In this document: positions 24,638 to 40,065 of the stretch, one piece after another | Position numbering within the stretch: position 1 is the stretch's first letter | Layout: each line of letters begins with the position of its first letter | From: Erysipelotrichaceae bacterium | Lineage (GTDB): Bacteria; Bacillota_I; Bacilli_A; Erysipelotrichales; Erysipelotrichaceae | Assembly (NCBI GenBank): GCA_030526485.1 | Contig: JAUNCS010000015.1 | Location: 1-41,031, forward strand | Direction: 5' to 3' | DNA length: 41,031 nucleotides | Notes under the pieces: generated by a model | What the model was told of the DNA's origin: nothing | Databases searched by the model: none | Seen by the model: only the letters and a program-made list of their open reading frames with translations | Made by a program: the position numbers and the translations under genes

Positions 24638-24705
24638 ATTATACTCCTCTACCAATGTTTGAAAGAAATTTTCATAAATAATGAAAAGGAATGAAAAATC
24701 TTTCA
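24638..24705. promoter_or_regulatory. acn/gltA divergent control region with two palindromes
   Basis: A minus-strand -10 box (24638-24643) serves acn. Two similar palindromes follow toward gltA: TGAAA-N5-TTTCA (24660-24674) and TGAAA-N4-TTTCA (24692-24705), centres about 31 bases apart. They could be operators for a shared regulator; none is encoded adjacent. Confidence 0.45.
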
Positions 24706-24752
24706 ATAAAGAATACTATATTGATAAAATAAGAATATTAGGTGGTATAAAC

Positions 24753-26087
24753 ATGGAAGATAAAGTATTACAAATGTTTAGGGATTCATTCGAAAGAAAT
24801 GCCATCCCCGATGAACTATATAGAAAACACGACGTAAAGAAAGGTTTACGTAATGAAGATGGAACTGGTGTCTTAATCGGACTTACCAGAATCGCCGATG
24901 TTGTCGGCTACAAAAAAGAAGACGGCAAAAAGATTGAAACCGAAGGTCAATTGTACTATCGTGGCTATTCAATTTCTGATATTGTCGCTCATTTAGATGA
25001 AGAAAAGATTTGCGGTTATGAAGAAGTCTGCTTCCTCTTATTAAATGGCTATTTACCAAACAAGGAAGAACTAAAGGCCTTCATGGACAAATTATCAGAC
25101 AACTATGAATTACCAGAAGGTTTCTTATCAAGAATTATCTTAAGATCTCCTTCTTTGAATATTATGAATAAGCTTCAGCGCTCTATTCTAATGATGTATT
25201 CAGAAGATGTTAATCCGGATGAAATATCTATTGAACAGACTTTTGAAAAAGGCTTAGGCTTAATCGCCAAGATGCCAGCTATTATTGCTTATACATTTGC
25301 TGGAAAAAGACATATCTTTGATAATGAAAGCTTAATTATTCATAAAGTCGATAAAAAGAAATCAATTGCGGAAAACATCCTGCAGCTTTTAAGAGCTGAC
25401 CAGAAATATTCATATGAAGAAGCTAAACTTTTAGACTTCTGCCTGGTATTACATATGGACCACGGTGCTGGTAATAACTCTACATTTACTAATATCGTTG
25501 TTTCAAGTACTGGTACTGATATCTATTCTTGTATGGCAGCTGCCATTGGTTCCCTAAAGGGTCCAAAACACGGTGGTGCCAATATCTCCGTTAGAAGAAT
25601 GATGAATGAAGTCATTGAAGAAATCGGCTTAGCAGCTACTGATGAAGAAATCAGAACTATTGTAAATAAAATCCTGGATAAGGACTTCTATGATAAACAG
25701 GGTCTAATCTATGGTATGGGCCATGCGGTCTATACCCTATCTGATCCAAGAGCCCAGCTATTAAAGAAACAGGCTGGCATTGTTGCCAAGGAAAAAGGCA
25801 TGAATTCTGAATTTGTCTTCTATCAGCGTTTTGAAAAGATTGCCAAGGAAGAATTCAAGAAGAGAAAGGGCCAGAATATCTGTGCCAATGTCGACTTCTA
25901 TTCAGGACTTGTTTACTCAATGTTGGAAATCGATGAAGAACTATTCACACCAATGTTTGTCTGCGCCCGTATGACAGGCTGGCTGGCACACAATATCGAA
26001 AACAAGTGCTACTGCAACAAGATTGTCAGACCTGCCGGTAAGTATGTTGGTGAACTATATGACTATGTTGAAATGGAGGACAGATAA
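24753..26087 (+). CDS. gltA: Citrate synthase
   Basis: This enzyme condenses oxaloacetate with acetyl-CoA (444 aa). Catalytic segments are visible: HMDHGAGNNSTF, GPKHGGANISVRRM, YGMGHAVYTLSDPRAQLLK and NICANVDFYSG. The ATG at 24753 is chosen because AGGTGG lies about seven bases upstream. The frame opens 24 codons earlier, but that part covers the probable operator region and lacks an SD. It is somewhat longer than standard type II enzymes, as in clostridial relatives. It overlaps icd by one base (TAATG), so the two are coupled. Confidence 0.93.
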   Translation: MEDKVLQMFRDSFERNAIPDELYRKHDVKKGLRNEDGTGVLIGLTRIADVVGYKKEDGKKIETEGQLYYRGYSISDIVAHLDEEKICGYEEVCFLLLNGYLPNKEELKAFMDKLSDNYELPEGFLSRIILRSPSLNIMNKLQRSILMMYSEDVNPDEISIEQTFEKGLGLIAKMPAIIAYTFAGKRHIFDNESLIIHKVDKKKSIAENILQLLRADQKYSYEEAKLLDFCLVLHMDHGAGNNSTFTNIVVSSTGTDIYSCMAAAIGSLKGPKHGGANISVRRMMNEVIEEIGLAATDEEIRTIVNKILDKDFYDKQGLIYGMGHAVYTLSDPRAQLLKKQAGIVAKEKGMNSEFVFYQRFEKIAKEEFKKRKGQNICANVDFYSGLVYSMLEIDEELFTPMFVCARMTGWLAHNIENKCYCNKIVRPAGKYVGELYDYVEMEDR

Positions 26088-27079
26088 TGAAAATCACATT
26101 ATTAAAGGGTGATGGCATTGGACCAGAAATCGCTGATCAGGTAGTAAGAATTCTTGATACCTTAAACCTGCCATTTGAATACGAAACATATGAAATCGGT
26201 CAGAATGCCTACGATAAGTATGGAGTTCTAATTCCTGATGAAGTTATTGAATCTATTAAAAAGAATAAAATCTGTCTAAAAGCTCCAGTTACCACTCCTG
26301 TAGGCAAGGGCTTTAGAAGTGTAAATGTTGGCCTAAGACTGGCCTTTGACTTATACGCTAATATCAGACCTGCCAAGAATACTGATGGCGTTAAGACAAG
26401 ATACGACAATGTTGACTTAGTAGTCTTTAGAGAAAACACTGAAGACTTATATATTGGTGAAGAAGAAGTGATTGATGATAATACTGTTGAAGCTATCAAA
26501 AGAATCACCAAGACTGCCTCTGACCGTATTATCAGAAGTGCCTTCGAATATGCCAGAGCTAATAATCGTCACAAAGTAACCTGTGTTCATAAGGCTAATA
26601 TCCTAAAGAAGTCTGATGGCCTATTCTTAAGCGAATTCAACAAGATTAAGGAAGACTATCCAGATATTGAAGCTAATGATCTAATTGTCGATAACACTTG
26701 TATGCAGCTGGTTATGAAACCTGAACAGTTTGACATTATGGTTATGCCTAACTTGTATGGTGACATCGTTTCTGACTTAACAAGTGGTCTAATCGGCGGC
26801 TTAGGCTTACTTCCTAGTGTCAACAAGAATGATGATGTTGCAATCTTTGAAGCTGTCCATGGTTCAGCTCCAGATATTGCTGGTAAGGGTATCGCAAACC
26901 CTACTGCCCTTTTATACTCAGCTTGTATGATGTTGGATCATCTAAACTACAAGGATGAAGCAGCTAAGATTAGAAACGCTGTTTCTGATGTCTTAAAGAA
27001 TACTGATGTAAGAACACCAGACTTAGGTGGTTCTTCAAGCACAATCGAATACGTTGATGAAATCATTAAGAGGTTATAA
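26087..27079 (+). CDS. icd: Isocitrate dehydrogenase (isopropylmalate dehydrogenase superfamily, probably NAD-dependent)
   Basis: This enzyme decarboxylates isocitrate to 2-oxoglutarate (330 aa, the short homo-oligomeric form). Motifs are KGDGIGPEI, the substrate loop GKGFRSVNVGLRLAFDLYAN and RENTEDLYIGEE. Lysine and aspartate motifs VHKANI, NLYGDIVSDL and EAVHGSAPDIAGKGIANPTAL follow. The short form and the acidic or neutral residues after the GSAPDIAG loop favour NAD, but cofactor is an inference. With acn and gltA it supplies 2-oxoglutarate for glutamate synthesis. A hairpin overlaps its stop codon. Confidence 0.9.
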   Translation: MKITLLKGDGIGPEIADQVVRILDTLNLPFEYETYEIGQNAYDKYGVLIPDEVIESIKKNKICLKAPVTTPVGKGFRSVNVGLRLAFDLYANIRPAKNTDGVKTRYDNVDLVVFRENTEDLYIGEEEVIDDNTVEAIKRITKTASDRIIRSAFEYARANNRHKVTCVHKANILKKSDGLFLSEFNKIKEDYPDIEANDLIVDNTCMQLVMKPEQFDIMVMPNLYGDIVSDLTSGLIGGLGLLPSVNKNDDVAIFEAVHGSAPDIAGKGIANPTALLYSACMMLDHLNYKDEAAKIRNAVSDVLKNTDVRTPDLGGSSSTIEYVDEIIKRL

Positions 27080-27106: not shown

Positions 27107-28018
27107 ATGAAAATCGCTATTTTAGGCTCAGGTTCTATGGGCTCATTAATTGGATCTTACTTAGCAGATAAACATGAATTAATCATGATTGATGCCTATG
27201 AAAAACTGGTTGAAACCGTTAAGGAAAAAGGCATTGAAGTAATTAAACAGGATGGTACAACTGTTTCTTATAAGCCAAGCATTTACCTGTCAGGAACATG
27301 TAAGGAAAAAGTTGATTTATTAATCAGCTTTGTAAAGGATACTACTACCGATAGAGCATTAAAAGACAATATCGAAATGATTGGTGAAGATACTATCGTT
27401 TTATCATTACAGAATGGTATGGGAAATGATTTAATCTTTAAGAAATATATTAAAGAAGAAAATATTCTTTTAGGTACTACCAAGCACAATGCCCACACAT
27501 TAGGACTAGGCTCAATTAAACATTCGGGTGCCGGTATTACCCATATTGGTTCTTTGGTTGGTAACTTTAAATTAGCTAACGATATTTCTGATTTATTAAA
27601 TGAAGTAAACTTTGAAACTATTGCCTGTGAAAATGTAAATCACTTATTATGGGAAAAACTGTTTGTTAATATCACCATTAACGCCTTAACCTCTATTTTA
27701 ACTGTTAGTATGGATTTCTTAGACTATGATTCACCAATCGACCCAGCTGTAAGCAACGTCTTAAAAGAAGCAATCGCTGTTGCCAAGGCCGATGGTGAAG
27801 ACTTTGATTATGATACTATCAAGAAACAGCTTTACGATTTAACCAGAACCTATATCGGTGGCAAGGCCAGTATGGAACAGGATGTGGAAATGAAGCGTTT
27901 AACGGAAATTGATTTTATCAATGGCTCAGTTGTAAGAATTGGCAAGAAGTACGGAATCCCTACACCAGTTAATGAAACAATCGTAGCTTTAGTGCATTCT
28001 AAGGAAAAACTGTATTAA
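27107..28018 (+). CDS. 2-dehydropantoate 2-reductase family protein (PanE/ApbA)
   Basis: A 303-aa NAD(P)H-dependent ketoacid reductase. It has a Rossmann motif ILGSGSMGSLIG at the N-terminus, the ketopantoate reductase segment TTKHNAHTLGLG with a candidate catalytic Lys, and a helical C-terminal domain with LFVNITINALTSIL. PanE makes D-pantoate for CoA, but many paralogues reduce other 2-ketoacids. No panB or panC is nearby; the neighbours make 2-ketoacids and a HAD phosphatase is coupled downstream (TAATG). The real substrate is therefore uncertain. The SD is AAGGAG. Confidence 0.8.
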   Translation: MKIAILGSGSMGSLIGSYLADKHELIMIDAYEKLVETVKEKGIEVIKQDGTTVSYKPSIYLSGTCKEKVDLLISFVKDTTTDRALKDNIEMIGEDTIVLSLQNGMGNDLIFKKYIKEENILLGTTKHNAHTLGLGSIKHSGAGITHIGSLVGNFKLANDISDLLNEVNFETIACENVNHLLWEKLFVNITINALTSILTVSMDFLDYDSPIDPAVSNVLKEAIAVAKADGEDFDYDTIKKQLYDLTRTYIGGKASMEQDVEMKRLTEIDFINGSVVRIGKKYGIPTPVNETIVALVHSKEKLY

Positions 28019-28848
28019 TGAATAAACTGGAATGTGTAATCTGTGACTTGGATGGTTCAATTCTTGACAGCAACAGAACACTCAATAGCACTGATTTAAA
28101 TACTATTAAAAAGCTTAAAGAAAAAGGAATTAAGTTTCTTATCTGTACTGGCCGCCCCTTTACTTTTACTAAACAGGTTATTTCTGATATCGGTAAAGAT
28201 ACCATCAGTATCAACTGTAATGGGGCCTATGTCTATGATTATCTAAAAGAAGAAGTAATCTATCACGAAGAGGAAATAGCTAGAGAAGATGTCTTAAATA
28301 TCTATAAGTTCTGTAAGGAAAACAGTTACCCTTATATGATTTATGCCTTAGAAGGAATCTTCTTTGATAATGAAAACTCCAAAAGAACAAGGTTCTGGAT
28401 GAAACAAAGAGATATTAACTTTAAAGATGAAAACAAGTTTGATATCAATTACTTCAATGGAGAAACTGATAATCTTCATTTCATGAAAGTAATTCACCCT
28501 TATGTGCCAGATGACTTTAAAAGTATATTAGATAAAAAGTTCAATTTAAATGAGCGCTATGAAGTCTCATCTTCAGAAAAAGGCATTATCAATATCACTT
28601 CTAAGGGAATTAATAAGGGTCATGCGGTTGAAAAAATGTCTAAACTTTTAGGCTTTGACTTAAAGAATACCCTGATACTTGGCGATAACTACAATGATGA
28701 GTCGATGCTGAAGATAGCTGGCTATGCCGTAGTGCCAAGTAATGGTGAGGAAGCAATGAAAAAGCTGGCAACCTTTATTACCAGCTCAAATGATGAAGCA
28801 CCTTTAACTAATGCCATCAAAAATTTATTTCCTGAGATATTAGACTAA
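28018..28848 (+). CDS. Cof-type HAD-IIB family phosphatase
   Basis: A 276-aa haloacid dehalogenase-fold hydrolase. Motif I is CDLDGSILD (nucleophile and acid Asp near residues 11-13). Motif II is ICTGRPF. The motif III lysine is in GINKGHAV and motif IV is ILGDNYNDESML. The C2B cap lies between. Such enzymes dephosphorylate sugar or cofactor phosphates; the substrate is unknown. It starts on the stop of the PanE-like gene, indicating coupling. It is convergent with and overlaps another Cof-type gene by nine bases. Confidence 0.87.
   Translation: MNKLECVICDLDGSILDSNRTLNSTDLNTIKKLKEKGIKFLICTGRPFTFTKQVISDIGKDTISINCNGAYVYDYLKEEVIYHEEEIAREDVLNIYKFCKENSYPYMIYALEGIFFDNENSKRTRFWMKQRDINFKDENKFDINYFNGETDNLHFMKVIHPYVPDDFKSILDKKFNLNERYEVSSSEKGIINITSKGINKGHAVEKMSKLLGFDLKNTLILGDNYNDESMLKIAGYAVVPSNGEEAMKKLATFITSSNDEAPLTNAIKNLFPEILD
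28759..28786 (-). terminator. Terminator of the minus-strand HAD gene, inside the plus-strand HAD gene
   Basis: A 9-bp stem with one G-U wobble (28763-28771 with 28778-28786), 6-base loop, then TTTTT on the minus strand. It lies 54 bases after the minus-strand stop, within coding sequence of the convergent gene. Confidence 0.7.
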
Positions 28849-29676
28849 TTTATAAATATTTAATAAGGCATATACAACACCACTACTGTTATTATCGGTA
28901 GTGGTTTTTTCAGCTATAGCCTTAAGTTCATCAACTGCATTTTCCATAGCTACTGAATGCTTAATGTTTTCCAGCATTTCGTAGTCATTCATATTATCGC
29001 CAAAGGCAATGATGTTATCTTTATCTATTCCTAAATAATCAGCCAGATAGAAGGCTGCCTTGGCCTTGCTGACGCCTTTTTTAATGACACCAACTATCAT
29101 GTCACCCGTATAAAAGATATTTACATCTTCATCTTTTAAGACTTCATTTAACTGATTAATTAATTCTGTTGGATCATCACCATCAATGCCCATGGAAATC
29201 TGACAGATTTCATCAAACTTATCCAGATCTTCAGCGCAGGTAATTTTACCAGGATAGAACAAGTCATTTTCATTCACTACAAATTCATTGCCCTTTAAAA
29301 AGAACTTGTGACGGGGAGAAGCTTCATTCATATATAGATTATCGGTTGTATGAATGATGATGTTATTCCAGGGAATAATGGTCCTGATCTTGTCCAGTAC
29401 TTTTCTATCAAGTATTTCGGCTTTAATTATTTTATCTGTTATAAAGTCATAAATAATGGTGCCACTTGAAGTAATCATCGGTACTCTTACATCAAGTTCT
29501 CGACAGTATCGCTTGATAGCTCCATAGGGTCTTGATGTAGCCAAAGAAAATGACAGACCCTTATCCTGTAATTCCTTTAAGACTTTTAGACTATAGTCAT
29601 CGATTTTCTTATCTGAGTTTAACAGTGTACCATCCATATCAGATACCACTAATGTTTCGTTAATTTTAAATTCCAT
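28840..29676 (-). CDS. Cof-type HAD-IIB family phosphatase
   Basis: A 278-aa HAD hydrolase of the same class as its convergent neighbour. Motif I is VSDMDGTLLNSD, motif II is SLATSRPYG, the lysine is in VSKAKAAF, and motif IV is IAFGDNMNDYEML. The cap is in the C2B position. Substrate is unknown. It lies downstream of the ula operon terminator. A TATAAT box overlapping the end of that terminator, only nine bases from its ATG, may give a very short leader, or it may depend on read-through. Its last codons hold the terminator of the opposing gene. Confidence 0.87.
   Translation of the reverse strand: MEFKINETLVVSDMDGTLLNSDKKIDDYSLKVLKELQDKGLSFSLATSRPYGAIKRYCRELDVRVPMITSSGTIIYDFITDKIIKAEILDRKVLDKIRTIIPWNNIIIHTTDNLYMNEASPRHKFFLKGNEFVVNENDLFYPGKITCAEDLDKFDEICQISMGIDGDDPTELINQLNEVLKDEDVNIFYTGDMIVGVIKKGVSKAKAAFYLADYLGIDKDNIIAFGDNMNDYEMLENIKHSVAMENAVDELKAIAEKTTTDNNSSGVVYALLNIYKLV
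28879..28911 (+). terminator. Terminator of the plus-strand HAD gene, inside the minus-strand HAD gene
   Basis: A perfect 8-bp stem (28879-28886 with 28898-28905) with an 11-base loop that may pair further, followed by TTTTTT on the plus strand. It lies within the C-terminal codons of the opposing gene. Confidence 0.8.
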
Positions 29677-29684
29677 ACTTCCAT

Positions 29685-29712
29685 TATAAAAGGCTATAGA
29701 TGTCTATAGCCT
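29685..29712 (-). terminator. Terminator of the ula minus-strand operon
   Basis: A perfect 9-bp stem (29691-29699 with 29704-29712), 4-base loop, then TTTATAAT on the minus strand, seven bases after the ulaE stop. Confidence 0.75.
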
Positions 29713-29718
29713 CATTAA

Positions 29719-30585
29719 TTAATCTTCAAATGCCTGATCTAATTTATCTCTTAAGAACTTATTAGATTCCTTTAGCCAGTTCATCCAGTCTTCAGGATGG
29801 TCACACCAGAATTCACCATTGAACATTCTGACACCCATTTCCTTTAGAACCTTGATATCAGCTACATAGTCAGTCAGACCTGTGCCCCAAGGTACACTTC
29901 TATCGGTCTTTGGTGCCGTTTCCTTTAAGTGGCAAGCCACGATATGGCCTTCACCTGTCTTGATATCATCAATAACTGATTTTTCATAACCGAAGTCATT
30001 TCTAGCACCAGCTAAGTTACCGATATCAGGATATACACCTAAGTATGGAGACTTGCAGATATTTACAAATTCCATACCCTTTTCAACAGTATCAATAAAT
30101 GGTCTATCCATCATTGTTTCAAAGCCCATTACGATACCCTTTTTAGCTGCCATTCTGGTTGCGATCTTTAAGTTCTTGATGAATTCAGCACGAGTTTCCT
30201 CATTAGCTTCTTCATAATAACAGTCATAACCAGCCAGCTGGATGATACGGATACCGATATCAGCGGCAAAATCAATTGCCAGCTTCATGATTTCCATAGC
30301 CTTTTCATGTTTTTCCTTGCCTAAAGAACCTAGAGAATACTTTCTTTGAGCAGAGAAACACATTGTATAAATAGGTGTACCAGTTTCCTTGATTAACTGA
30401 ACAAGTTCATCTTTCTGTTCCTTAGTCCAGTAAAGACGAGAAATCTTTTCATCAGTTTCATCAATAGAGATTTCAATCCAGTCGAAATTAGCTTCCTTAG
30501 CAGCTAACAGCTTTTCTTTCCATGTCAAAGTTGTTGGCATGGATTTTTCGTACATACCTAATAGATATTCTCTATCCTTGGCCAT
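29719..30585 (-). CDS. ulaE: L-ribulose/L-xylulose-5-phosphate 3-epimerase
   Basis: A TIM-barrel sugar-phosphate 3-epimerase (288 aa). In the ascorbate pathway it converts L-xylulose 5-phosphate to L-ribulose 5-phosphate. Segments typical of UlaE/SgbU are [55 protein letters not shown] and PDIGNLAG, ending MFNGEFWC. Metal ligands are expected at the Glu in FETM, the Asp in YPDIGN and the His in ACHLKE. It overlaps the upstream ulaF by 14 bases. A second copy lies at 36775-37581 in the divergent ula unit. Confidence 0.92.
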
Positions 30586-31267
30586 AGTAAGCTCCTGGGC
30601 CGTGTTTTCTTAAGAAGTGCTTATCTAACAGTGTATCCTGCATAGGTGGAACACTAGGGTTGATAGTAACGCTCTTTAATGCCATTTCAGCTAAAGTATC
30701 TAATACTACTGAATTGTGTACAGCATCAAATGGATCCTTACCCCAAGTGAATGGACCATGAGAATGAACTAGTACAGCTGGCATATAGTCAGGGTTGATA
30801 CCTCTCTTATTGAATTCTTCAACAACAACCTTACCTGTATTTAATTCATATGCACCCTTGATTTCTTCATCAGTCATAAGTCTTGTGCAAGGAATTGAAC
30901 CATAGAAGTAGTCACCATGAGTAGTACCTAAAGCTGGAATATCCTTACCAGCCTGCGCCCAGGCAACTGCATTAACTGAGTGAGTATGAACTACACCACC
31001 AATATTTGGGAAGTTCTTATAGAACTCTAAGTGAGTAGCCAAGTCACTTGAAGGTTTTAATTTGCCTTCAACAACATTACCTTCCATATCAACAACTACC
31101 ATATCATCAGCAGTCATCTTGTCGTATTCAACACCACTTGGTTTGATTACAACTAAGCCCTTTTCTCTATCGATACCTGAAACATTACCCCAAGTAAATA
31201 CAACCAGGCCATATTCAGGAAGTTCAAGATTGGCTTTAAATACTTTCGCTTTTAATTCTTCTAACAT
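30572..31267 (-). CDS. ulaF: L-ribulose-5-phosphate 4-epimerase
   Basis: A class II aldolase-fold epimerase (231 aa) that converts L-ribulose 5-phosphate to D-xylulose 5-phosphate, the exit of the ascorbate pathway. It has [33 protein letters not shown] and the zinc His pair in [18 protein letters not shown]. The third His is in [11 protein letters not shown]. Length and motifs match AraD/UlaF/SgbE. It follows the beta-propeller gene by 11 bases with SD AGAGGG. AraD of arabinose use is the same family; the ula context decides the name. Confidence 0.92.
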
Positions 31268-31278
31268 ATTCGTCCCTC

Positions 31279-32310
31279 TTATTTAACTTCGTAAATTGCA
31301 GCTTCATTTAATGTGTGGTTAGCACCTAAGATATATTCCTTACCATTGTGGTGGATTACATCAAGGTTAGCAGGACCAACACCAGTATCAACAGTATGAA
31401 CAACAAATTCACCATTTTCATAAGTTAATACGAAGATTTCACAGTTAATTCTTCTGATACCAGCTACAAAGCAAGGCTTACCACCAAGTGTAGTGCCAAC
31501 TAATGCATGAGCAAAGTCGATTTCATTTGGATAAGTATATACTCTTTCATAGCCGCCATCTTTTTCATGATATACATGGATAGCGTTGCCATGGAATGGC
31601 TCAATAGTCATGAATTCTTCCTTGCCATCACCATCGATATCAGCAATAGCGATTTCACCGATCTTGCCATCCATTAGCTTTTCAAGATTCCAGTCCTTAC
31701 CGCCATCTACTGGAGTAAGTCTGTATAGACCAGAATCACAACCAAAGTAACCGCAATCGTTGCCATTGTACTGACCACGAGTGTAACCGTGGTTTCTGTA
31801 TAAGCCATCAGCTACCTGTCTTAATACAACATTTTCATTTTCTAAATCAGCAGGAATTTCACCAACATAGATCTGACCAGGTCTAGTCCAGTCTTCCTTG
31901 TTTGCCTTGTCTCTTGCGATAGTTGCACAAACTACGAAATCCTTGCCATCAATGTGATATATATCGAAACGATGTAGATAAGGTAAATTAAATACATCTT
32001 TTACTTCCCAACCTGTTTCAGTTTTCTTACCCCATACAAGTTTTGCATGAGAAGGAGAAACCTTTAGGTAGAATTCGTTAACTGCTAAGAATTCACCTTT
32101 TCTTGTCTTGAAAGGAATGATAGACATGCAACCGCCACGAGTATCTTCCCAAACAACTTCTTTAGTTTCGAAGTTTTCGCCAGTATATGAATAACATGGA
32201 GCACTTGGATTTTCGCTTGCGAAGAAGGCATAGCACTTATCATCGATATCCATATGGCTAGCGCAATAACATCTTACGATGTCATCTAAATGTGTTTTTT
32301 CAAAAATCAT
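31279..32310 (-). CDS. Cytosolic FG-GAP/VCBS-like beta-propeller protein of unknown function
   Basis: A 343-aa protein without signal peptide or membrane segment. It is rich in short beta repeats of the form W/Y...G..F...V. It contains one clear calcium-loop signature, [18 protein letters not shown] (about residue 220), typical of FG-GAP/VCBS propeller blades. Related blade starts are [18 protein letters not shown] and [18 protein letters not shown]. It lies between ulaB and ulaF, behind a hairpin that may reduce its expression relative to the PTS genes. Propellers include lactonases and sugar-binding domains, so a role in ascorbate or lactone handling is possible but unproven. It has no counterpart in the E. 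coli ula operon. Confidence 0.8.
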
Positions 32311-32332
32311 ATATTTCTTCCCTTCTTGATAG

Positions 32333-32360
32333 AAAAAGGGCTAGTCATTTGCTAGCCCTT
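32333..32360 (-). terminator. Internal terminator/attenuator between ulaB and the beta-propeller gene
   Basis: A perfect 9-bp stem (32336-32344 with 32352-32360), 7-base loop, then TTTTT on the minus strand. The next gene starts 22 bases later with its own SD (AAGGGAAG) and no clear promoter, so partial read-through is inferred. Confidence 0.8.
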
Positions 32361-32372
32361 AAACTTTAATTA

Positions 32373-32657
32373 CTATGCTAAACCGTTATCCTTTAAAGCC
32401 TTAGTATATTCAGCCTGAGATAAAGGACTCTTTACTGCAGCGATCTTAACATTGTTCTTAACTGAATCAAATGTAGATACGAATGCAGGAGATGTAATTA
32501 CGATGTCATATTGTCTAGCTACAGACTTTGCTTCAGCGATAGGAGCATGAGCAACACTAGCTTCGATGCCTAAAGCCTTGCAAGCCTTTTCAGCAGTCAA
32601 TTTCATCATCATGCTAGTTCCTGAACCACTAGCACAGCAAACTAAAATTTTAATCAT
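32373..32657 (-). CDS. ulaB: PTS ascorbate transporter subunit IIB
   Basis: A 94-aa cytosolic phosphocarrier. The phosphorylated cysteine is expected at Cys8 in VCCASGSGTSMMM, the P-loop of the SgaB/lactose-type IIB fold. It accepts phosphate from UlaC and passes it to the sugar bound by UlaA. It follows ulaA by about 45 bases with SD AGAGG. Position and size match the ascorbate/galactitol IIB group. Confidence 0.9.
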   Translation of the reverse strand: MIKILVCCASGSGTSMMMKLTAEKACKALGIEASVAHAPIAEAKSVARQYDIVITSPAFVSTFDSVKNNVKIAAVKSPLSQAEYTKALKDNGLA

Positions 32658-32703
32658 TATAATTTCCTCTTTTCCTTAAGAGTATTGTAACTCAAATAGG
32701 TAA

Positions 32704-34191
32704 TTATTTCTTAGCGATATGTTCCTTGTAAGCTTCCCAGTCTTCAACACATAAGAAGTAACCTTCTGGATCAGCCTTGTACTGTAGCTGAGGGATAGCG
32801 ATAAGGATGATAGCGATAAGAGCAACACCAACGTAACCAAGGTAGTGCATAACAACACCGAATGCAGGCCAGATAACAGCCCAGTCGAACATTGCCATCC
32901 AACCCTTAGCACTAGCTGTCTGAGTTAATACTGATACATCACCAACTGTGAAGAACTGAGCAGCTAATACAGAGCAGAATACCTGTAGTAAACCGTTTAC
33001 GAATGCAGCAGTCATAGCAGCCTTAGCACCTGATTTAGCGTTAACGTATACAGAGATTGTAGCGTTATCGAAGAATACAGGAACGAAACCAGCGATTGCG
33101 ATAACTGGAGACTTAGTAAGAATTAGGATACCGATAGCTAAGAACTGACCGATTGCACCGAAGATGAAACCGAATGTTACAGCGTTAGCTGAACCGAAAC
33201 CGTAAGATGCAGCACAGTCAAGACCTGGAACAGCACCTGGAAGTAACTTGTTAGAGATACCCTGGAATGAGTTAGTTAATTCACCAACGAAGATTCTTAC
33301 ACCAAGCTGTAATACAGCCATGTAAACTGCGAATGCTAAAGCGTTATCCATAATGCAGAAGAAGAAGTTACCCTTAGAACCTGCAACGTTGAATTCAGCT
33401 AGAGTTGGCTTACCAGTGATAACCATGATAACGCCGATAAATAATAACATTAAGATTGAAGTTGATACAGTGTTTTCATTGAACATTGATAACCAACCAG
33501 GTAGTTCGTAATCTTCGAACTTCTTAGCGTTATTTTCAGATTTGAATAGTAGACCACCTAATGCTTCATAGATAGCGATACCGAACATCTGCTGGTGAGC
33601 AACACAGAAACCAGCACCATCAGTTAATCTCTGTGCAGTTTCAACTGTTAAGTTAGAACCAACAGCCCAGTATAGACCAAGTAATACAGCCATTAGAACT
33701 AGCATTGGTCCATCAGCTAAGTTAGGGAAGCAAGTGAAGAAGATCCAGAATGCGAATGTAGCCTGCTGAGTCTGAACGTGACCAGTAGTGAATACAGCTC
33801 TCATCTTAGTTACTTTCTGGAACTTAACTAATAAGATGTTGAATACGAATGCGATAAGTAATAATACCATTGCCTGAGAGAATGATTTACCGCAAGCTTC
33901 CATAGCGCCCTGTGCAGCAGTCTGACCGATGTAAGTATCAAGAACCATTGCATCGATACCAAACTTACTTGATAGAGCAGAGATGATTGGTTTGAAAGTA
34001 GATGATAGACCACCTGAACCAACTAATAGGATTTTGTAACCTACAGTTGCTTTGATGAAGCCTGAAAATACTTCATACCACTGTTTCTTCAATAGGATGT
34101 AACCAACTACTGTGATTAAACCAATGAAGTAAGCTGGAGTCTTTAAGAAGTTATTCGCAAAGAACTCCCAAAATGTCATTAAAACGTTCAT
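32704..34191 (-). CDS. ulaA: PTS ascorbate transporter subunit IIC
   Basis: A 495-aa polytopic membrane permease of the SgaT/UlaA family. About eleven hydrophobic helices are visible. Family segments include FFANNFLKTPAYFIGLITVVGY, written here in part as NNFLKTPAYF, plus IGQTAAQGAMEA and LPGAVPGLDCAASYGFGSANAV. It imports L-ascorbate and presents it for phosphorylation at C6. The codon choice is visibly that of a strongly expressed gene. It lies between ulaC and ulaB, with SD AAAGGGG. Confidence 0.93.
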   Translation of the reverse strand: MNVLMTFWEFFANNFLKTPAYFIGLITVVGYILLKKQWYEVFSGFIKATVGYKILLVGSGGLSSTFKPIISALSSKFGIDAMVLDTYIGQTAAQGAMEACGKSFSQAMVLLLIAFVFNILLVKFQKVTKMRAVFTTGHVQTQQATFAFWIFFTCFPNLADGPMLVLMAVLLGLYWAVGSNLTVETAQRLTDGAGFCVAHQQMFGIAIYEALGGLLFKSENNAKKFEDYELPGWLSMFNENTVSTSILMLLFIGVIMVITGKPTLAEFNVAGSKGNFFFCIMDNALAFAVYMAVLQLGVRIFVGELTNSFQGISNKLLPGAVPGLDCAASYGFGSANAVTFGFIFGAIGQFLAIGILILTKSPVIAIAGFVPVFFDNATISVYVNAKSGAKAAMTAAFVNGLLQVFCSVLAAQFFTVGDVSVLTQTASAKGWMAMFDWAVIWPAFGVVMHYLGYVGVALIAIILIAIPQLQYKADPEGYFLCVEDWEAYKEHIAKK

Positions 34192-34209
34192 TATTATTCC
34201 CCTTTCGTT

Positions 34210-34668
34210 TTAATCTGCATATTTTGCATCTATATCTAGAAGATCCTGGGCAGTTTCGGCCTTTAACAGATCTTCAATGATACCGTCTTTCATAAGCAAT
34301 TCAGATAACATCATCATGTTCTGTAAATGCTTGTCGCTGTCAACGGCAGCTAATGTAAAGAATAAACGTGCATTCTTTTCTGGATCATTTGGATCAAATA
34401 CTACTGGTTCTTTAACCTTGCAGAAACCAATTGCAGTCTTGTTTACACCAACACCACCTAATGTTGAATGCGGCATTGCTACATCTGGCATGATTACAAA
34501 GTAAGGACCATATGTATTTACATTTTCAATGATCTTATCTAAATATTCGTTTTCTAAAGTACCATCTGCTAAAAGTGGTTTAGCAGCACCATATACTGAG
34601 TCCTGCCAAGTATCGAACTTGTCAGTAAATAAGTAATGATTTTGTTCTACGATGTCTCTTAATAACAT
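34210..34668 (-). CDS. ulaC: PTS ascorbate transporter subunit IIA
   Basis: A 152-aa cytosolic IIA domain of the mannitol/fructose type. The phosphorylated His is His67 in MPDVAMPHSTLGG. It takes phosphate from HPr and passes it to UlaB. The ATG at 34668 is chosen because AGGGGAAAG is upstream; a start at 34683 would place that SD in the coding region. It is the first gene of the ula minus-strand operon, behind a promoter with a cre-like site in its spacer. Confidence 0.9.
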   Translation of the reverse strand: MLLRDIVEQNHYLFTDKFDTWQDSVYGAAKPLLADGTLENEYLDKIIENVNTYGPYFVIMPDVAMPHSTLGGVGVNKTAIGFCKVKEPVVFDPNDPEKNARLFFTLAAVDSDKHLQNMMMLSELLMKDGIIEDLLKAETAQDLLDIDAKYAD

Positions 34669-34692
34669 AAACTTTCCCCTCAAATTAATTTC

Positions 34693-34721
34693 ATTCTAAT
34701 AAATGTAAACGCTTAAATCAA
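34693..34721 (-). promoter_or_regulatory. Promoter of the ulaC-ulaA-ulaB operon
   Basis: On the minus strand, -35 TTGATT (34716-34721), 17-base spacer, -10 TAGAAT (34693-34698), about 25 bases from the ulaC start. Confidence 0.7.
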
Positions 34722-34751
34722 TCGATTTTGGAAAATATGTAAGTGTTTACA
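34704..34751. promoter_or_regulatory. Two cre-like sites at the ula promoter
   Basis: TGTAAACGCTTAAA (34704-34717) matches the catabolite-responsive element consensus at all but about one position and overlaps the promoter spacer. TGTAAGTGTTTACA (34738-34751) is a second, weaker copy in which TG replaces the central CG. Repression by CcpA-HPr(Ser-P), or by a LacI-family protein, is inferred. Confidence 0.7.
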
Positions 34752-34829
34752 TAATTTATTCATTTTCTGCATTTAAGAAATTTAATAATAAAATCCGCAA
34801 AAATGAGTGTATAATCTTATATTTCTATA

Positions 34830-35468
34830 TTATTTCTGACCGTAAGAAACCCAACCTGCAGCTTCATCCGCAATTTCTTTATCAGTTAACTCTGGAACTG
34901 AGCCCATGATTCTAGCCATACAGTAAGTCTTAGCTGCTTCTTCCAGATATACAGCTGAATATAACGCTTCTTCCAAATCCTTACCGAAAGTAATAACGCC
35001 ATGGTGCTTCATAATAACTGCACTGGCATCACCGGCATATTCAACGCAAAGCTTGCCCATACCAATATCACTAGATTTGGTCCAAGGCGCTACATTAATG
35101 CGAGCATGAGCCGCATCAATTAAAGTAACCATGCAGGCAGGAAGTGAATCATTATTAAAGCCAATAGCTGTTGCGTAAGGCTGGTGTGTATGGATTACAC
35201 AGTTAACACCTTCAATATGGTCGAAGATATAAACCAAAGCTGTTGAATCGCTTGATGGCTTTCTGTTGCCTTCGATTAAATTGCAGTCATGGTCAATTAC
35301 ACAGATATCTTCTGGAACCATTTCTTCATATAGCATGCCACTTGGAGTAACCAGATAATGATCATCATCCATCTTTAAAGAGATGTTACCACCTGTTAAA
35401 GAAATAAGCTGATACTCTTTTAAGCGCATGCAAGCTCTTAACATTTGTTTCTTTTCTAATTCGTACAT
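34830..35468 (-). CDS. Class II aldolase/adducin-family protein (L-ribulose-5-P 4-epimerase or L-fuculose-1-P aldolase type)
   Basis: A 212-aa zinc enzyme of the AraD/FucA fold. It has SLTGGNISLK, VTPSGMLYEEM, KPSSDSTALVYI and the metal pair CVIHTHQPYATAIG; a further His is in MKHHGVITFG. It is shorter than the ulaF product (231 aa), and its C-terminus differs. It may be a second 4-epimerase or a sugar-phosphate aldolase for a related substrate. It lies between the ula PTS operon and ulaG, sharing the divergent control region with ulaG. No strong terminator separates it from the ulaC promoter. Confidence 0.85.
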   Translation of the reverse strand: MYELEKKQMLRACMRLKEYQLISLTGGNISLKMDDDHYLVTPSGMLYEEMVPEDICVIDHDCNLIEGNRKPSSDSTALVYIFDHIEGVNCVIHTHQPYATAIGFNNDSLPACMVTLIDAAHARINVAPWTKSSDIGMGKLCVEYAGDASAVIMKHHGVITFGKDLEEALYSAVYLEEAAKTYCMARIMGSVPELTDKEIADEAAGWVSYGQK

Positions 35469-35487
35469 TATTTAATACCTCTATACC

Positions 35488-35598
35488 TTGATTGTCATAA
35501 AAAAACATTAAATGCACAATTTCATTCAATTAAACTTTCATAAAAATCCCAAAACAATCATAAACTTCTGTTTATTTCGTGAACAATCTAGATAAAAT
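35488..35598. promoter_or_regulatory. ulaG/class II aldolase divergent control region with repeated motif
   Basis: Read on the minus strand, TTTATGATTGTTTT (35551-35564) and TTTATGAAAGTTTA (35531-35544) fit WTATGANWGTTT. TTTATGACAATC (35490-35501) is a third, diverged copy. The intervals are about 20 and 43 bases. A possible ulaG -10, TAAAAT, lies at 35593-35598. The same motif recurs at 40819-40925 near the DeoR-family gene. Confidence 0.6.
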
Positions 35599-35639
35599 GA
35601 AAGTAGGTTAACAAAAGTTAATAATTTAGGAGGAAATTT

Positions 35640-36719
35640 ATGCCAAACGTTAATGACGTTACACGTGAAAAATGGATTTTAGGCACTTTCCCAGAATGGG
35701 GAACTTGGCTAAATGAAGACATTCAGGACACTGTTGTAGAAAAAGGTAAGTTCGCAATGTGGTGGTTAGGTTGTACTGGTCTTTGGGTTAAGACTGAAAA
35801 CAACACTAACATCATCATGGACTACTGGTGTGGTTCTGGTAAGCAGACTCACTACAATGAAGATGGTTCTTTAAAGAAAATCAGCCCAGACCATCAGATG
35901 GCTAGAATGTCAGGTTGTACAGAATTACAGCCAAACTTAAGACTTGTACCTGCAGTACTTGATCCATTCGCAATCAAAGATGTTGATGCAGTATTAGCTT
36001 CTCATACTCATACTGACCATATCGATATCAACCTTGCTGCTGCAGTATTAAAGAACGTTGACAAACCAGTTCCATTCATCGGTTCTAAGTTCGCTACTGA
36101 TAAGTGGAGAGAATGGGGTGTACCAGAAGAAAGACTAGTAACAGTTAAACCTGGTGACGTAGTAGAAGTTAAGGATATCAAGATCCACGTTGTTGAATCA
36201 TTAGATAGAACTATCCTTATCACTGCTCCACCTTCAGGTAGCGTTATCGGCGCTAAGTTAGATGATATGGACGAAAGAGCTGTATCTTACGTTGTAGAAA
36301 CTCCAGGTGGTACTATCTACCATTCAGGTGACTCTCACTTCGGTAACTTATACGCTAAGCATGGTAATGAATTCAATATCGACGTTGCATTCGGTTCATT
36401 CGGTGAAAACCCTAGAGGTGTAACTGATAAGATGACTGCTTCTGATATCTTAAGAATGGGTGAAGATCTAAACTGTAAAGTTATGATCCCTTATCACCAT
36501 GATTTATGGACTAACTTCCAGGCAGATACAAATGAAATCCTTGTTCTTTGGTACATGAGAAAAGACAGACTTCAGTACAAGTTCAAACCATTTATCTGGC
36601 AAGTTGGTGGTAAGTTCATTTATCCAGATGATAAAGACAAGATGCAGTACCATTACCCAAGAGGCTTTGGTGACGTATTCTCTAAACCAATCAACCTTCC
36701 ATTCCCATCATTCCTATAA
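35640..36719 (+). CDS. ulaG: L-ascorbate-6-phosphate lactonase
   Basis: A metallo-beta-lactamase-fold hydrolase (359 aa) that opens L-ascorbate 6-phosphate to 3-keto-L-gulonate 6-phosphate. The metal motif HxHxDH is intact in SHTHTDHID (His122, His124, Asp126, His127). Additional ligands are likely in [10 protein letters not shown] and [11 protein letters not shown]-terminal [16 protein letters not shown] is typical of UlaG. The SD is AGGAGG. It begins the plus-strand ula unit, followed by a terminator and then ulaE2 and ulaD. Confidence 0.95.
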
Positions 36720-36728
36720 TAGTTATGA

Positions 36729-36767
36729 TAATCAGCTCGTCTATATATAGGGCGGGCTGATTTTTTT
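36729..36767 (+). terminator. Terminator after ulaG
   Basis: A stem of AATCAGC (36730-36736) with GCTGATT plus extra pairs, and a long AT loop, followed by TTTTTTT on the plus strand. It lies immediately before the ulaE2 start codon, so downstream genes depend on read-through or an unseen promoter. Confidence 0.75.
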
Positions 36768-36774
36768 AGACCCT

Positions 36775-37581
36775 ATGAAGAATTTATTAGGTATTTATGA
36801 AAAAGCTCTTCCGATAGAAGTGAGTTGGAGAGAAAGATTTGAACTGGCAAAAAAAGCCGGATTTGACTTTATTGAAGTTTCTGTAGATAAAAGCAGACTT
36901 AATAAACTTGACTGGACAGATGAAGAAATCAAGGAAATGCTTGATCTGGCAGAAGAATTCGGCATGCCATACCACACTCTTACCCTTTCGGCTAACAGGT
37001 ACTGGCCGATTGGCGATAATAAGCTAAGAGATGAGGGTATTAAATTAATAAAAAAAGCCATTGTTCTGGCTAAAAAAATGAATATTGAAATCATTCAGTT
37101 GGCTGCCTATGACGTATATGGCAAAGAATCAACTGAAGAAAGTGCAAGACTATATAAAGAAGCCCTGTTGGAAGTATTGGAATTCAATAAGGACTACAAT
37201 ATCGTATTAGCTATTGAAGTACTGGAAGACTGTAACCTATATAACACTTCTGAAAAACTGGTAGCTTTAATCAAAGATATTAACAGTCCATACTTAAAAG
37301 AATATGCTGATAACGGCAATCTTATCTATAACGGCTATGATCCGGTAGAAGATCTAAAAGCCTGCAAAGATGAAATTGTGGCCCTGCACGTTAAAGATGC
37401 CATCTTCCATAACGAACACAATATTGAATATGGACATGGTGAAGTTGATTTTGAAGGTGTCTTTAAATATCTGAAAGAAATCGACTATCAAGGAATTTTA
37501 GTATCTGAATGCTGGTATGAAGAAGACTTCCATCCAGATCTCGAATACGTCAATAATTTTATAAGGAGATATATGCAATGA
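36775..37581 (+). CDS. ulaE: L-xylulose-5-phosphate 3-epimerase, second copy
   Basis: A 268-aa TIM-barrel epimerase, paralogous to the gene at 29719-30585 but about 20 residues shorter. Shared pattern: GIYEKALP, FDFIEVSVDKSRLNKLDW, IIQLAAYDVYGKES, LAIEVLEDCNLY, EYADNGNL, ALHVKDA and ILVSECWYEEDFHPD. The catalytic Glu in AIEVL and metal ligands Asp, His and Glu are conserved. The ATG follows a terminator U-run directly and has no visible SD; the next in-frame ATG is too far into the fold to be the start. It overlaps ulaD by four bases. Confidence 0.9.
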   Translation: MKNLLGIYEKALPIEVSWRERFELAKKAGFDFIEVSVDKSRLNKLDWTDEEIKEMLDLAEEFGMPYHTLTLSANRYWPIGDNKLRDEGIKLIKKAIVLAKKMNIEIIQLAAYDVYGKESTEESARLYKEALLEVLEFNKDYNIVLAIEVLEDCNLYNTSEKLVALIKDINSPYLKEYADNGNLIYNGYDPVEDLKACKDEIVALHVKDAIFHNEHNIEYGHGEVDFEGVFKYLKEIDYQGILVSECWYEEDFHPDLEYVNNFIRRYMQ

Positions 37582-38225
37582 TTCCAAAAATACAATTAGC
37601 GCTTGATTGTTTAAGCACTGAAGATGCAATCAAAGTATTAGCCAGTGGTGTAGCTGATGAAGTAGACATCGTTGAATGTGGCTACTGCATGATCGCAAGA
37701 GAAGGTGCAAGAGTTGTTAAGTATTTCAGAGAAATGCTTCCAAACAAACCATTACTTGCTGACTTAAAAATCGTTGATGCTGGTAATGCAATCGGTGGTG
37801 CCCTATTAGACGGTAGACCAGACTTCACAACAATCCTTTGTGCTTGTGAACCTGGTACAATCGACGCCGTAATCGCTGAAAGAGAAAAGAGAAATCTTAA
37901 CACTGAATTACAGATTGAACTATATGGTCACTGGTCATTTGACGACATCCCTATGTGGAAAGAAAAAGGCATCAGACAGCTAACTCTACAGCACTCTGGT
38001 GATAAACCTGGTGGTTGGGATGAAGAAGAACTGGCTACTTTAAGAAAGCTTGTTGACTGTGGCATCCCAGTAGCAGCAACTGGCCATATCGATTACGATG
38101 AACTGGATAAGTTTGTTGGCATCCCTGTATCTAACTTCATCTTCGGCTCAGCTATTAAAAATGCAGCTGATCCTAAGGCGGAAGCTAGAAGAATCAGAGA
38201 AAAAATCGAAAAACTTTGGGGTTAA
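37578..38225 (+). CDS. ulaD: 3-keto-L-gulonate-6-phosphate decarboxylase
   Basis: This enzyme decarboxylates 3-keto-L-gulonate 6-phosphate to L-xylulose 5-phosphate (215 aa). It belongs to the orotidine-monophosphate-decarboxylase superfamily. The Mg and catalytic triad Asp62, Lys64, Asp67 lies in ADLKIVDAG, and the first catalytic Asp is in LALDC. C-terminal GIPVAATGHI and NFIFGSAI bind phosphate. Hexulose-phosphate synthase shares the fold, but context fixes the assignment. It has SD AAGGAGA inside the end of ulaE2 and a strong terminator after it. Confidence 0.95.
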   Translation: MIPKIQLALDCLSTEDAIKVLASGVADEVDIVECGYCMIAREGARVVKYFREMLPNKPLLADLKIVDAGNAIGGALLDGRPDFTTILCACEPGTIDAVIAEREKRNLNTELQIELYGHWSFDDIPMWKEKGIRQLTLQHSGDKPGGWDEEELATLRKLVDCGIPVAATGHIDYDELDKFVGIPVSNFIFGSAIKNAADPKAEARRIREKIEKLWG

Positions 38226-38231
38226 TCCATT

Positions 38232-38268
38232 AAGCTAAACATCTATTGGTGTTTAGCTTTTTATTTAT
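38232..38268 (+). terminator. Terminator of the ulaG-ulaE2-ulaD unit
   Basis: A perfect 10-bp stem (AAGCTAAACA with TGTTTAGCTT) and an 8-base loop, followed by a T-rich run on the plus strand. Confidence 0.85.
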
Positions 38269-38271
38269 TAT

Positions 38272-38305
38272 TTTAAAAAATCTGTGCACTTAGAATACAC
38301 AGATT
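38272..38305 (-). terminator. Terminator of the Rpn-family gene
   Basis: A perfect 8-bp stem (38279-38286 with 38298-38305) with an 11-base loop, followed by TTTTTTAAAA on the minus strand, just after the gene's stop. Confidence 0.75.
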
Positions 38306-38309
38306 AATA

Positions 38310-39197
38310 TTAGATGATATTTAATTTTTCCTTAACAATTTCTGCTGTTTTATCATCAGCCTTAAGGATGGTGATGGCTTTCTCAAAAGGTATTCCAGAT
38401 TCAACCAAAGAGATAATATTATTCATCAGCATTTCCTGTTTGCCTTGTTCGAAACCCTGTTGGATGCCCTGTTTTATCCAATTATCCGCGGTAATAGCCA
38501 TACTAGATACCTCCTCTTCATTTATGATTATATCGTATTCTTTGTTGAGGATATCTCTTTTACAGTTTGGAGTTATATTGGACTCTGTAAACAAAATTCT
38601 AAAAAGGTCAAGGATATGCTCGCTCTCTAGTTTCTTCTTTCTGCCTATGCCCAACATCAAAATATGAATGTAATCATAGCTTTCTGGTCTTGCTTTATAA
38701 TTACCCCACAAGTGTTCTTCTTTAAAAATATACCGATTAATACTATCTTCCATCTCCTCTTTGGGATTAGGACAAATCCAGATAGAGTATACCTTCCTCA
38801 TTTTTCCGTAGTCCGAATGATGAAATGTTTCACCTTTTTGTCTGGCTATTAATCTCGTGGAATAATATATAGCCCTTTGAATAAGGTGATAACCAAGTTT
38901 AAAATCGTTCTGAGCTTCGATATCAATATACATCCCTATTGTTTCATCACTATTTGGAAGTTTAGCTGTAAAGAGAATATCATATACTATCTTGGCATTT
39001 TCAGTCCTGAAGTCTTCATTTTGCATTCCTTTGATATTTCTTGATTCATCACCATCTTCTATCAGCTTTACTATTTCATTAATGCCTAAATCAGAGTACT
39101 CAGGAATAAGAGATTTCATCACATTGGCTAATACCTGCTTATTTGATAAGATCTTTCTAACATTTTCATCATATAAAGTTTTGTTTAAATGGTTCAT
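38310..39197 (-). CDS. Rpn-family PD-(D/E)XK nuclease / putative transposase
   Basis: A 295-aa protein of the Rpn (recombination-promoting nuclease, PDDEXK 'transposase') family. The N-terminal nuclease core is visible: FRTENAKIVYDILFTAKL (catalytic Asp), then MYIDIEAQNDF (the E-x-Q motif), and YYSTRLIARQKGE. The C-terminus has the family's Gln/Gly-rich heptad-like helix GIQQGFEQGKQEM and a leucine-rich tail. Such proteins are multi-copy in Firmicutes and are linked to DNA recombination or phage defence. No terminal repeats or target duplications flank it, so it is a single gene rather than an insertion sequence. SD AAGGAGGG. Confidence 0.85.
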   Translation of the reverse strand: MNHLNKTLYDENVRKILSNKQVLANVMKSLIPEYSDLGINEIVKLIEDGDESRNIKGMQNEDFRTENAKIVYDILFTAKLPNSDETIGMYIDIEAQNDFKLGYHLIQRAIYYSTRLIARQKGETFHHSDYGKMRKVYSIWICPNPKEEMEDSINRYIFKEEHLWGNYKARPESYDYIHILMLGIGRKKKLESEHILDLFRILFTESNITPNCKRDILNKEYDIIINEEEVSSMAITADNWIKQGIQQGFEQGKQEMLMNNIISLVESGIPFEKAITILKADDKTAEIVKEKLNII

Positions 39198-39288: not shown

Positions 39289-40065
39289 TTACTTATTTAA
39301 AGGTTCTACTTTAATAACTTCCAGATTAGAAACTTCCTTGATTTCTTCCAGTGTATTATTATCTGCCAGTACATCGGTTATCAGATAATCGATGCCACCG
39401 AAGTCTGAATAATTAAAGTTATAGTCTAGACCTATTTTTGTATGATCGCACAGAACAAATCTTTTACCCCTTGTATGATCAATCATCGCCTTATTGACTA
39501 AAGTCTCCTTCATAAGGCCAGTTGATATACCGTTTTTAGTAAGACCGCTGCAACCAATAAAGCACTTATTCGCATTAATAGAATTAATAGTCTTAACCGC
39601 CAATTCTCCCATTAAAGAATTCTTGGGATATCTTACCTCACCACCTGTCAACATGATTACCGCATTAGAGTCAGGATGTGAGTTAATAGCCTTGGCATTG
39701 TTGGTAATAATCGTTACATTCTTATTTTTGATGTAGTCAATTACCGCTACGGCAGTCATTGAAGAATTGATGAAAATGACATCATTATCTTCGACATATA
39801 ATGCTGCTCTTTTGGCAATCGCACGCATATAACGGAATCTGTCATATAAGGAATTATCACTGACAAATTCCTGTATTAAAGAGGCACCACCATAATTTCT
39901 TTCAATGGCACCCTTATCTTCCCAATACTGAAGATCTCTTCTGATTGTCACAGCTGAAACTTTGAAACGGGCAACCAGCTCATCCACAGAAATAAAGTTA
40001 TTTTCCTGGATGGCCTTCATGATTTCGTCTCTTCGTTTATCAACTATATCCTTACTTACTTTCAC
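39289..40065 (-). CDS. DeoR-family transcriptional regulator (candidate ula regulator)
   Basis: A 258-aa repressor. The N-terminal winged helix has the DeoR signature VDELVARFKVSAVTIRRDLQYWEDKGAIERNYGGA (residues about 27-61). The C-terminal sugar-phosphate sensor domain includes VIFINSSMTAVAVIDYI, IITNNAKAI, MLTGGEVRYP and CFIGCSGL. UlaR of enterobacteria is a DeoR-family protein that senses ascorbate 6-phosphate, so a ula role is plausible. The start is GTG with GGAG upstream, overlapping the membrane-protein gene by 14 bases. A repeated motif lies in the promoter of its operon and upstream of ulaG. Another sugar pathway starting at 40982 could be its target instead. Confidence 0.88.
   Translation of the reverse strand: MKVSKDIVDKRRDEIMKAIQENNFISVDELVARFKVSAVTIRRDLQYWEDKGAIERNYGGASLIQEFVSDNSLYDRFRYMRAIAKRAALYVEDNDVIFINSSMTAVAVIDYIKNKNVTIITNNAKAINSHPDSNAVIMLTGGEVRYPKNSLMGELAVKTINSINANKCFIGCSGLTKNGISTGLMKETLVNKAMIDHTRGKRFVLCDHTKIGLDYNFNYSDFGGIDYLITDVLADNNTLEEIKEVSNLEVIKVEPLNK

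Follow-up and report, generated by a model that had tools for sequence, protein, structure and literature searches.

In the standard route of L-ascorbate breakdown, ascorbate 6-phosphate is converted by UlaG to 3-keto-L-gulonate 6-phosphate, UlaD removes CO2 to give L-xylulose 5-phosphate, and UlaE and UlaF carry out the steps that follow (PMC3219644). A survey of over 100 genomes reported that every case had the ulaABCDEF unit (PMC3219644). Here we analysed a stretch of 41,031 nucleotides from an Erysipelotrichaceae bacterium (contig JAUNCS010000015.1 of assembly GCA_030526485.1; hereafter the window) that holds a ula operon with UlaG, UlaE, UlaF and a UlaA with ascorbate-pocket residues, and from which an intact UlaD is absent. 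Between its ulaB-like and ulaF-like genes lies an open reading frame (ORF) for a 343-residue protein predicted to fold as a seven-bladed beta-propeller. This propeller is a conserved part of the ula operon in the window's family, neither an artefact nor a stray secreted propeller. From its context and fold, we consider it fairly probable that the protein acts in the cytosol as an enzyme of anaerobic L-ascorbate fermentation, where it would be a non-homologous replacement for UlaD.

The propeller gene in ascorbate operons

The propeller ORF starts with an ATG at 32310 and ends at 31279 on the - strand, with a clear AAGGGAAG ribosome-binding site upstream; 62 bases separate the IIB gene from its start and 11 bases separate its end from ulaF. 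An initial annotation, made from the letters alone, had described a signal-less product with one DIDGDG loop inside an ascorbate phosphotransferase system (PTS) operon. ORF, sequence and profile matches agree with this description, the profile matches identifying IIB, UlaA, IIA, UlaF, UlaE and a divergent UlaG as neighbours. No hydrophobic signal was found at the N-terminus of the propeller or at those of 25 homologues.

The propeller occurs in 54/196 genomes of the window's family (Erysipelotrichaceae), in 87/295 genomes of an order sample that includes family f2, and in G314 and G327, which belong to two other families of the class; one weak match (G534, E 1e-4) was excluded from the propeller family. 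Relatives with a name are from the ileum of sheep, the duodenum of dairy cattle and further metagenome-assembled genomes labelled Erysipelotrichaceae or Solobacterium, and a plasmid search found no plasmid carrying the gene. Homologues 28–79% identical recur in the same operon slot, which argues that the gene is not there by chance. At 38 of the 40 family loci examined, the propeller lies inside a ula operon adjoining ulaF/ulaE, directly after IIB in 28, and the usual gene order is UlaG-IIA-UlaA-IIB-propeller-UlaF-UlaE. Within the family, UlaG is present in 52/196 genomes and shares 49 of them with the propeller, against 14.3 expected (uncorrected for relatedness). The linkage to ulaA and ulaG for which the initial annotation had suggested a survey is therefore conserved; homologues are not mostly found away from ula genes, and the aligned members carry no secretion signals.

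We scored UlaD as absent when neither of two queries gave a match at E up to 1e-30. On this basis, 48 of 57 propeller genomes lack UlaD, two hold intact UlaD, and seven, including that of the window, hold a UlaD-like protein without His136/Arg139, in which the YHRSRD stretch that contains these residues is replaced by LQHSGD. We take His136 and Arg139 of UlaD (KGPDC) to have a role in proton transfer. Intact UlaD was found in 2/52 genomes with both UlaG and the propeller versus 4/5 with UlaG and no propeller (Fisher p=2e-4, uncorrected for relatedness), and in those four a canonical UlaD lies inside the ula operon. Two propeller-less members of the window's family (G130 and G167) have the order UlaG-IIA-UlaA-IIB-UlaD-UlaE-UlaF, with UlaD in the exact slot of the propeller. 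A further genome with UlaG and neither of the two (G028) is uninformative because it is 65% complete and partly N. G031 is a single contig and 99% complete; its operon consists of UlaG, three PTS parts, the propeller, UlaF and UlaE, together with a DeoR regulator in divergent orientation, and a UlaD was not found in the genome. The propeller is thus the only gene of this operon without an assigned role. Since it usually occurs where UlaD is missing, it probably performs the UlaD step with an unrelated fold.

The substrates entering these operons appear to be the usual ones. G031 UlaG matches E. coli UlaG at 1.7e-162. Eleven UlaA positions contact vitamin C (PMC6048161); the E. coli protein has TYHIQHQDIFM there and that of the window TYHVQHQDVFM, and the letters are PYHVQHQDVFM for G031 and PYHIQHQDIFM for the UlaD operons. 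By these comparisons, UlaG and the transporter pocket appear to be of the ascorbate type in both kinds of operon, and with an E. coli-type UlaG and nearly all 11 pocket positions matching, the pathway input looks unchanged where UlaD is lacking. A UlaG tree showed no clean split by operon type and was not used as strong evidence, because its key node is weak (0.43). It seems slightly more probable than not that the propeller displaced UlaD across much of the window's family and in some neighbouring families, and that the leftover UlaD-like protein of the window type was freed for another role.

Other arrangements were also seen. An operon version with an ABC importer (L071:346-12722) contains UlaG, an esterase, UlaE, the propeller and UlaF, together with a second metallo-beta-lactamase-fold protein, a nucleoside-hydrolase-like gene and a UPF0261-like protein (some of these names come from ORF reading). 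Scaffold MT836566.1 (L122), from human faeces and labelled Bacteriophage sp., carries UlaE, UlaG, UlaA, the propeller and UlaF. We rejected it as a phage copy; an unannotated, UNVERIFIED faecal scaffold with ula genes is most likely mislabelled bacterial DNA.

Fold and predicted active face

AlphaFold2, run with eight homologues, predicted a propeller of seven blades with good confidence (pLDDT 87.9, pTM 0.88). When Foldseek's top 1000 Protein Data Bank (PDB) chains were realigned to this predicted model, the three entries with the catalytic propeller of fungal aldos-2-ulose dehydratase/isomerase (AUDH; 4a7k, 4a7y and 4a7z) ranked first, with Z 35.1–35.3 over 333/343 residues at a root-mean-square deviation of 2.5–2.6; the next group reached Z 29.2, versus 35.3 for AUDH. 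The AUDH entries came first only after realignment; in Foldseek's own list the top places go to EPTP propellers of LGI1 and to several WD40-type propellers. The superposition covers 4a7k residues 19–433, and the propeller occupies the whole 343-residue protein, which has neither the cupin nor the lectin domain that full-length AUDH carries. In a weak pairwise match (E 0.08), H113-R114 falls on AUDH H155-R156 and EPFHGN on EAFHGN, collinearly. PDB searches with two divergent propeller members added little.

Profile libraries gave only sub-threshold matches. PF22301 (AUDH_beta_propeller) scored 15.3 bits against the window propeller, below its gathering cutoff of 27, and matched 4/26 propeller members at E up to 0.1. 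PF01839 (FG-GAP) scored 16.0 bits with a cutoff of 22.1, in one stretch and without repetition across the blades. An NCBIfam profile search with the window propeller gave no match, and the family is consequently one without a name in these libraries. The initial description of the protein as an FG-GAP-like propeller holds as to likeness and, given the seven-bladed model, as to fold, but not as to membership in FG-GAP, for which the score is too low.

Eight polar or aromatic residues (H113, R114, D140, W141, H174, H240, H268 and R286) are invariant among 26 diverse members. By strand-to-blade assignment, 20 invariant positions fall in DA and BC loops versus 4 in AB/CD loops (T57 was excluded as a gap artefact). 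The DA and BC loops of propellers lie on one face. The four exceptions, D224, D228, G229 and E232, are residues of the calcium-type loop, which lies within the AB loop of blade 5 and so faces away from the conserved loops; its role is probably structural. An active site at the propeller mouth would be expected to show such a pattern, and the presence of invariant His, Arg, Asp and Trp on one predicted face makes an enzyme likelier than a sensor. The structure prediction and fold search recommended at the outset thus returned a propeller, AUDH as best match and an enzyme-like face.

Proposed reaction and alternatives

By elimination, the step from UlaG product to UlaE substrate is the only one left, which would make the propeller a beta-keto acid decarboxylase that converts 3-keto-L-gulonate 6-phosphate to L-xylulose 5-phosphate. 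Decarboxylation of beta-keto acids is helped by a Lewis acid and yields an enediolate. Combined with the keto-sugar chemistry of AUDH and the metal in its PDB titles, this leads us to propose a mechanism through a metal-bound enediolate. A divalent metal would be held at the propeller mouth by some of His113, His174, His240 and His268 and would bind the 2-hydroxy-3-keto group of the open-chain beta-keto acid. Departure of CO2 would leave a metal-bound enediolate, which a neighbouring group, with Arg114, Asp140 and Arg286 as candidates, would help to protonate to the ketose. The metal, its ligands, the roles of individual residues, the substrate and the activity are those that we infer.

Several observations weigh against a decarboxylase. 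We know of no propeller decarboxylase, and searches of the available papers for one, or for a ula-linked propeller, found none. The sequence link to AUDH is weak, and a PDB profile search with the 26-member alignment gave no match, so that the link rests on structure and weak pairwise motif matches. The window-type UlaD-like protein keeps the Asp11/Glu33/Asp62/Lys64/Asp67 set and may still work. Several genomes carry an HxlA-like protein, 25–32% identical to UlaD (the one that was checked is HxlA), which might decarboxylate weakly. Only two of the available clades bear UlaD and are free of the propeller, and independent swaps of the two are few. Two genomes (G187 and G025) hold both propeller and intact UlaD; at two loci (L069 and L111) the propeller lies outside ula operons, overlapping or after a HAD gene and without UlaG; and at L070:3451-9122 a homologue stands beside a ribose-type ABC importer and an unrelated 314-residue metallo-beta-lactamase-fold protein. 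Because of these pattern-breaking members, the substrate may be broader or different in some of the family. The L070 stretch also has a DeoR-type regulator and, nearby, no PTS and no UlaE/UlaF (names from ORF reading).

The propeller might instead catalyse another step of the same pathway. Its substrate would then be 3-keto-L-gulonate 6-phosphate or an oxidised form or isomer of ascorbate (dehydroascorbate, isoascorbate), and the reaction that of a dehydratase, an epimerase, a mutarotase or an isomerase. Its closest fold relative is a dehydratase on keto sugars, two genomes hold both enzymes, and the window-type UlaD-like protein, second UlaE and extra class II aldolase could form a side branch feeding the same pentulose phosphates. 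Most propeller operons, however, contain only UlaG, PTS, UlaF and UlaE besides the propeller; with no other decarboxylase there, nothing would lead from the C6 acid to the C5 epimerases, and the product of a dehydratase would be unsuited to UlaE/UlaF. We regard this alternative as unlikely, and the mutarotase that the initial annotation had entertained is less likely, since the pattern of presence and absence across genomes singles out the decarboxylase step as the one that is missing.

We give a low probability to decarboxylation by an unrecognised or HxlA-like enzyme encoded elsewhere, with the propeller as an accessory or metabolite-repair enzyme. The HxlA-like proteins of some propeller genomes would suit it, and so would three loci in which a HAD phosphatase is next to the propeller, overlaps it or is fused with it; yet most propeller genomes have not even an HxlA-like match, and Cof-like hydrolases, which many ula regulons contain (PMC3219644), are found in UlaD operons as well (L101, L102). 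For the same reason we set aside the HAD fusion as a functional clue. In that fusion (L104:7884-9812), a HAD-IIB phosphatase is joined to the propeller N-terminus in a protein of 642 residues; in L105 the HAD gene lies next to that of the propeller, and in L069 the two overlap.

It is quite improbable that the protein is non-catalytic and serves as a sugar-phosphate sensor, a lectin-like binder or a scaffold on which ula enzymes assemble. A DeoR/UlaR-type regulator, which also speaks against the sensor first suggested for this gene, is already present in several loci, the polar invariants, most of them on one face, are typical of catalysis, and a sensor leaves the absence of UlaD unexplained. 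Least credible is a lactonase, also suggested initially, or a lactone mutarotase assisting UlaG: seven-bladed propellers annotated as 6-phosphogluconolactonases (3scy, 4qrj) are in the Foldseek list, but the best fold is AUDH and not a PF10282 lactonase (that profile did not match the window protein and matched 1/26 members at E 0.042), most of the same loci have a clear UlaG, which suffices elsewhere, and the missing UlaD, which points to the decarboxylase step, would be left unexplained.

Neighbouring genes and known systems

Features of the window are collected in Table 1. The HAD-IIB phosphatase 3′ of ulaE is probably an accessory gene. The extra class II aldolase at the operon head is found in window-type operons and in G038 (L063). 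Judged from its residues, the UlaD-like protein of the window and its counterparts in related genomes possibly represent a new activity in the OMPDC suprafamily. No Rfam element was found in 28000–39000 of the window. Farther off, at 24681–27079, a citrate synthase is directly followed by an isocitrate/isopropylmalate-type dehydrogenase (names from ORF reading).

Table 1. Positions of the propeller gene, its calcium-type loop and neighbouring genes in the window
Feature	Position	Strand	Evidence
Seven-bladed beta-propeller (343 residues), proposed UlaD replacement	31279..32310	-	ORF, AlphaFold2 model, AUDH best match, conserved family
Calcium-type loop codons (DIDGDG; residues 224-233)	31612..31641	-	sequence, DSSP, loop assignment
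Cof-type HAD-IIB phosphatase, 3′ of ulaE	28840..29676	-	TIGR00099 above cutoff
UlaE copy 1, L-xylulose-5-phosphate 3-epimerase	29719..30585	-	TIGR00542 275.8, cutoff 272
UlaF/AraD, L-ribulose-5-phosphate 4-epimerase	30572..31267	-	TIGR00760 400.7 bits, cutoff 389
UlaB-like PTS IIB	32373..32657	-	PF02302 (PTS_IIB) 1e-17
UlaA-like PTS IIC, ascorbate-pocket residues kept	32704..34191	-	EIIC-GAT 7e-96; 4rp8 match 4e-81; 11 pocket positions
UlaC-like PTS IIA	34210..34683	-	PF00359
Second class II aldolase/epimerase-like gene, operon head	34830..35468	-	PF00596; under every NCBIfam equivalog cutoff shown
UlaG, L-ascorbate-6-phosphate lactonase, divergent operon	35640..36719	+	NF008688 593.8 bits, cutoff 306
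UlaE paralogue (copy 2)	36775..37581	+	PRK13210.1 233 bits, cutoff 200
UlaD-like protein without the His136/Arg139 pair of E. coli UlaD	37578..38225	+	NF009832 174 bits, cutoff 250; alignment
DeoR-family, UlaR-type regulator	39289..40065	-	named from ORF reading; resembles DeoR gene beside the L044 operon

If the propeller does replace UlaD, an unnamed family of bacterial proteins would gain its first assigned function, and the propeller would be the first sugar-acid decarboxylase with a beta-propeller fold known to us. A metal-dependent propeller could then stand in for a textbook decarboxylase, non-homologous enzymes performing one reaction, and gut and rumen bacteria would have a second way of fermenting vitamin C, independent of UlaD. 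The use of UlaD as a marker would miss ascorbate fermentation in gut bacteria.

The E. coli ula regulon (ulaG, ulaABCDEF) shares with these operons the PTS, the lactonase, the epimerases and a DeoR-type regulator; it has UlaD and, as the initial annotation had stated, no propeller gene. UlaD/KGPDC (NF009831/NF009832) resembles the propeller in proposed reaction, operon slot and neighbours, whereas in fold it is a TIM barrel of the OMPDC suprafamily to which the propeller is unrelated and without sequence similarity, so that the two would be functional analogues and not homologues. VCBS/FG-GAP propellers (PF13517, PF01839) share the fold and a DxDxDG-type loop, and weak FG-GAP matches occur in 14/26 members, but the window propeller has a single such loop, scores below cutoff, and is a cytosolic protein of a metabolic operon. 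AUDH of Phanerochaete (PF22301) shares seven blades and the HR and E-x-FHGN motifs in register; it is a keto-sugar enzyme whose PDB entry titles name an active-site metal and an ascopyrone M intermediate. The propeller differs from it in its low identity (13–14%, under the PF22301 cutoff) and lack of cupin and lectin domains, in being bacterial, cytosolic and operon-bound, and in its proposed reaction, which would be decarboxylation and not dehydration.
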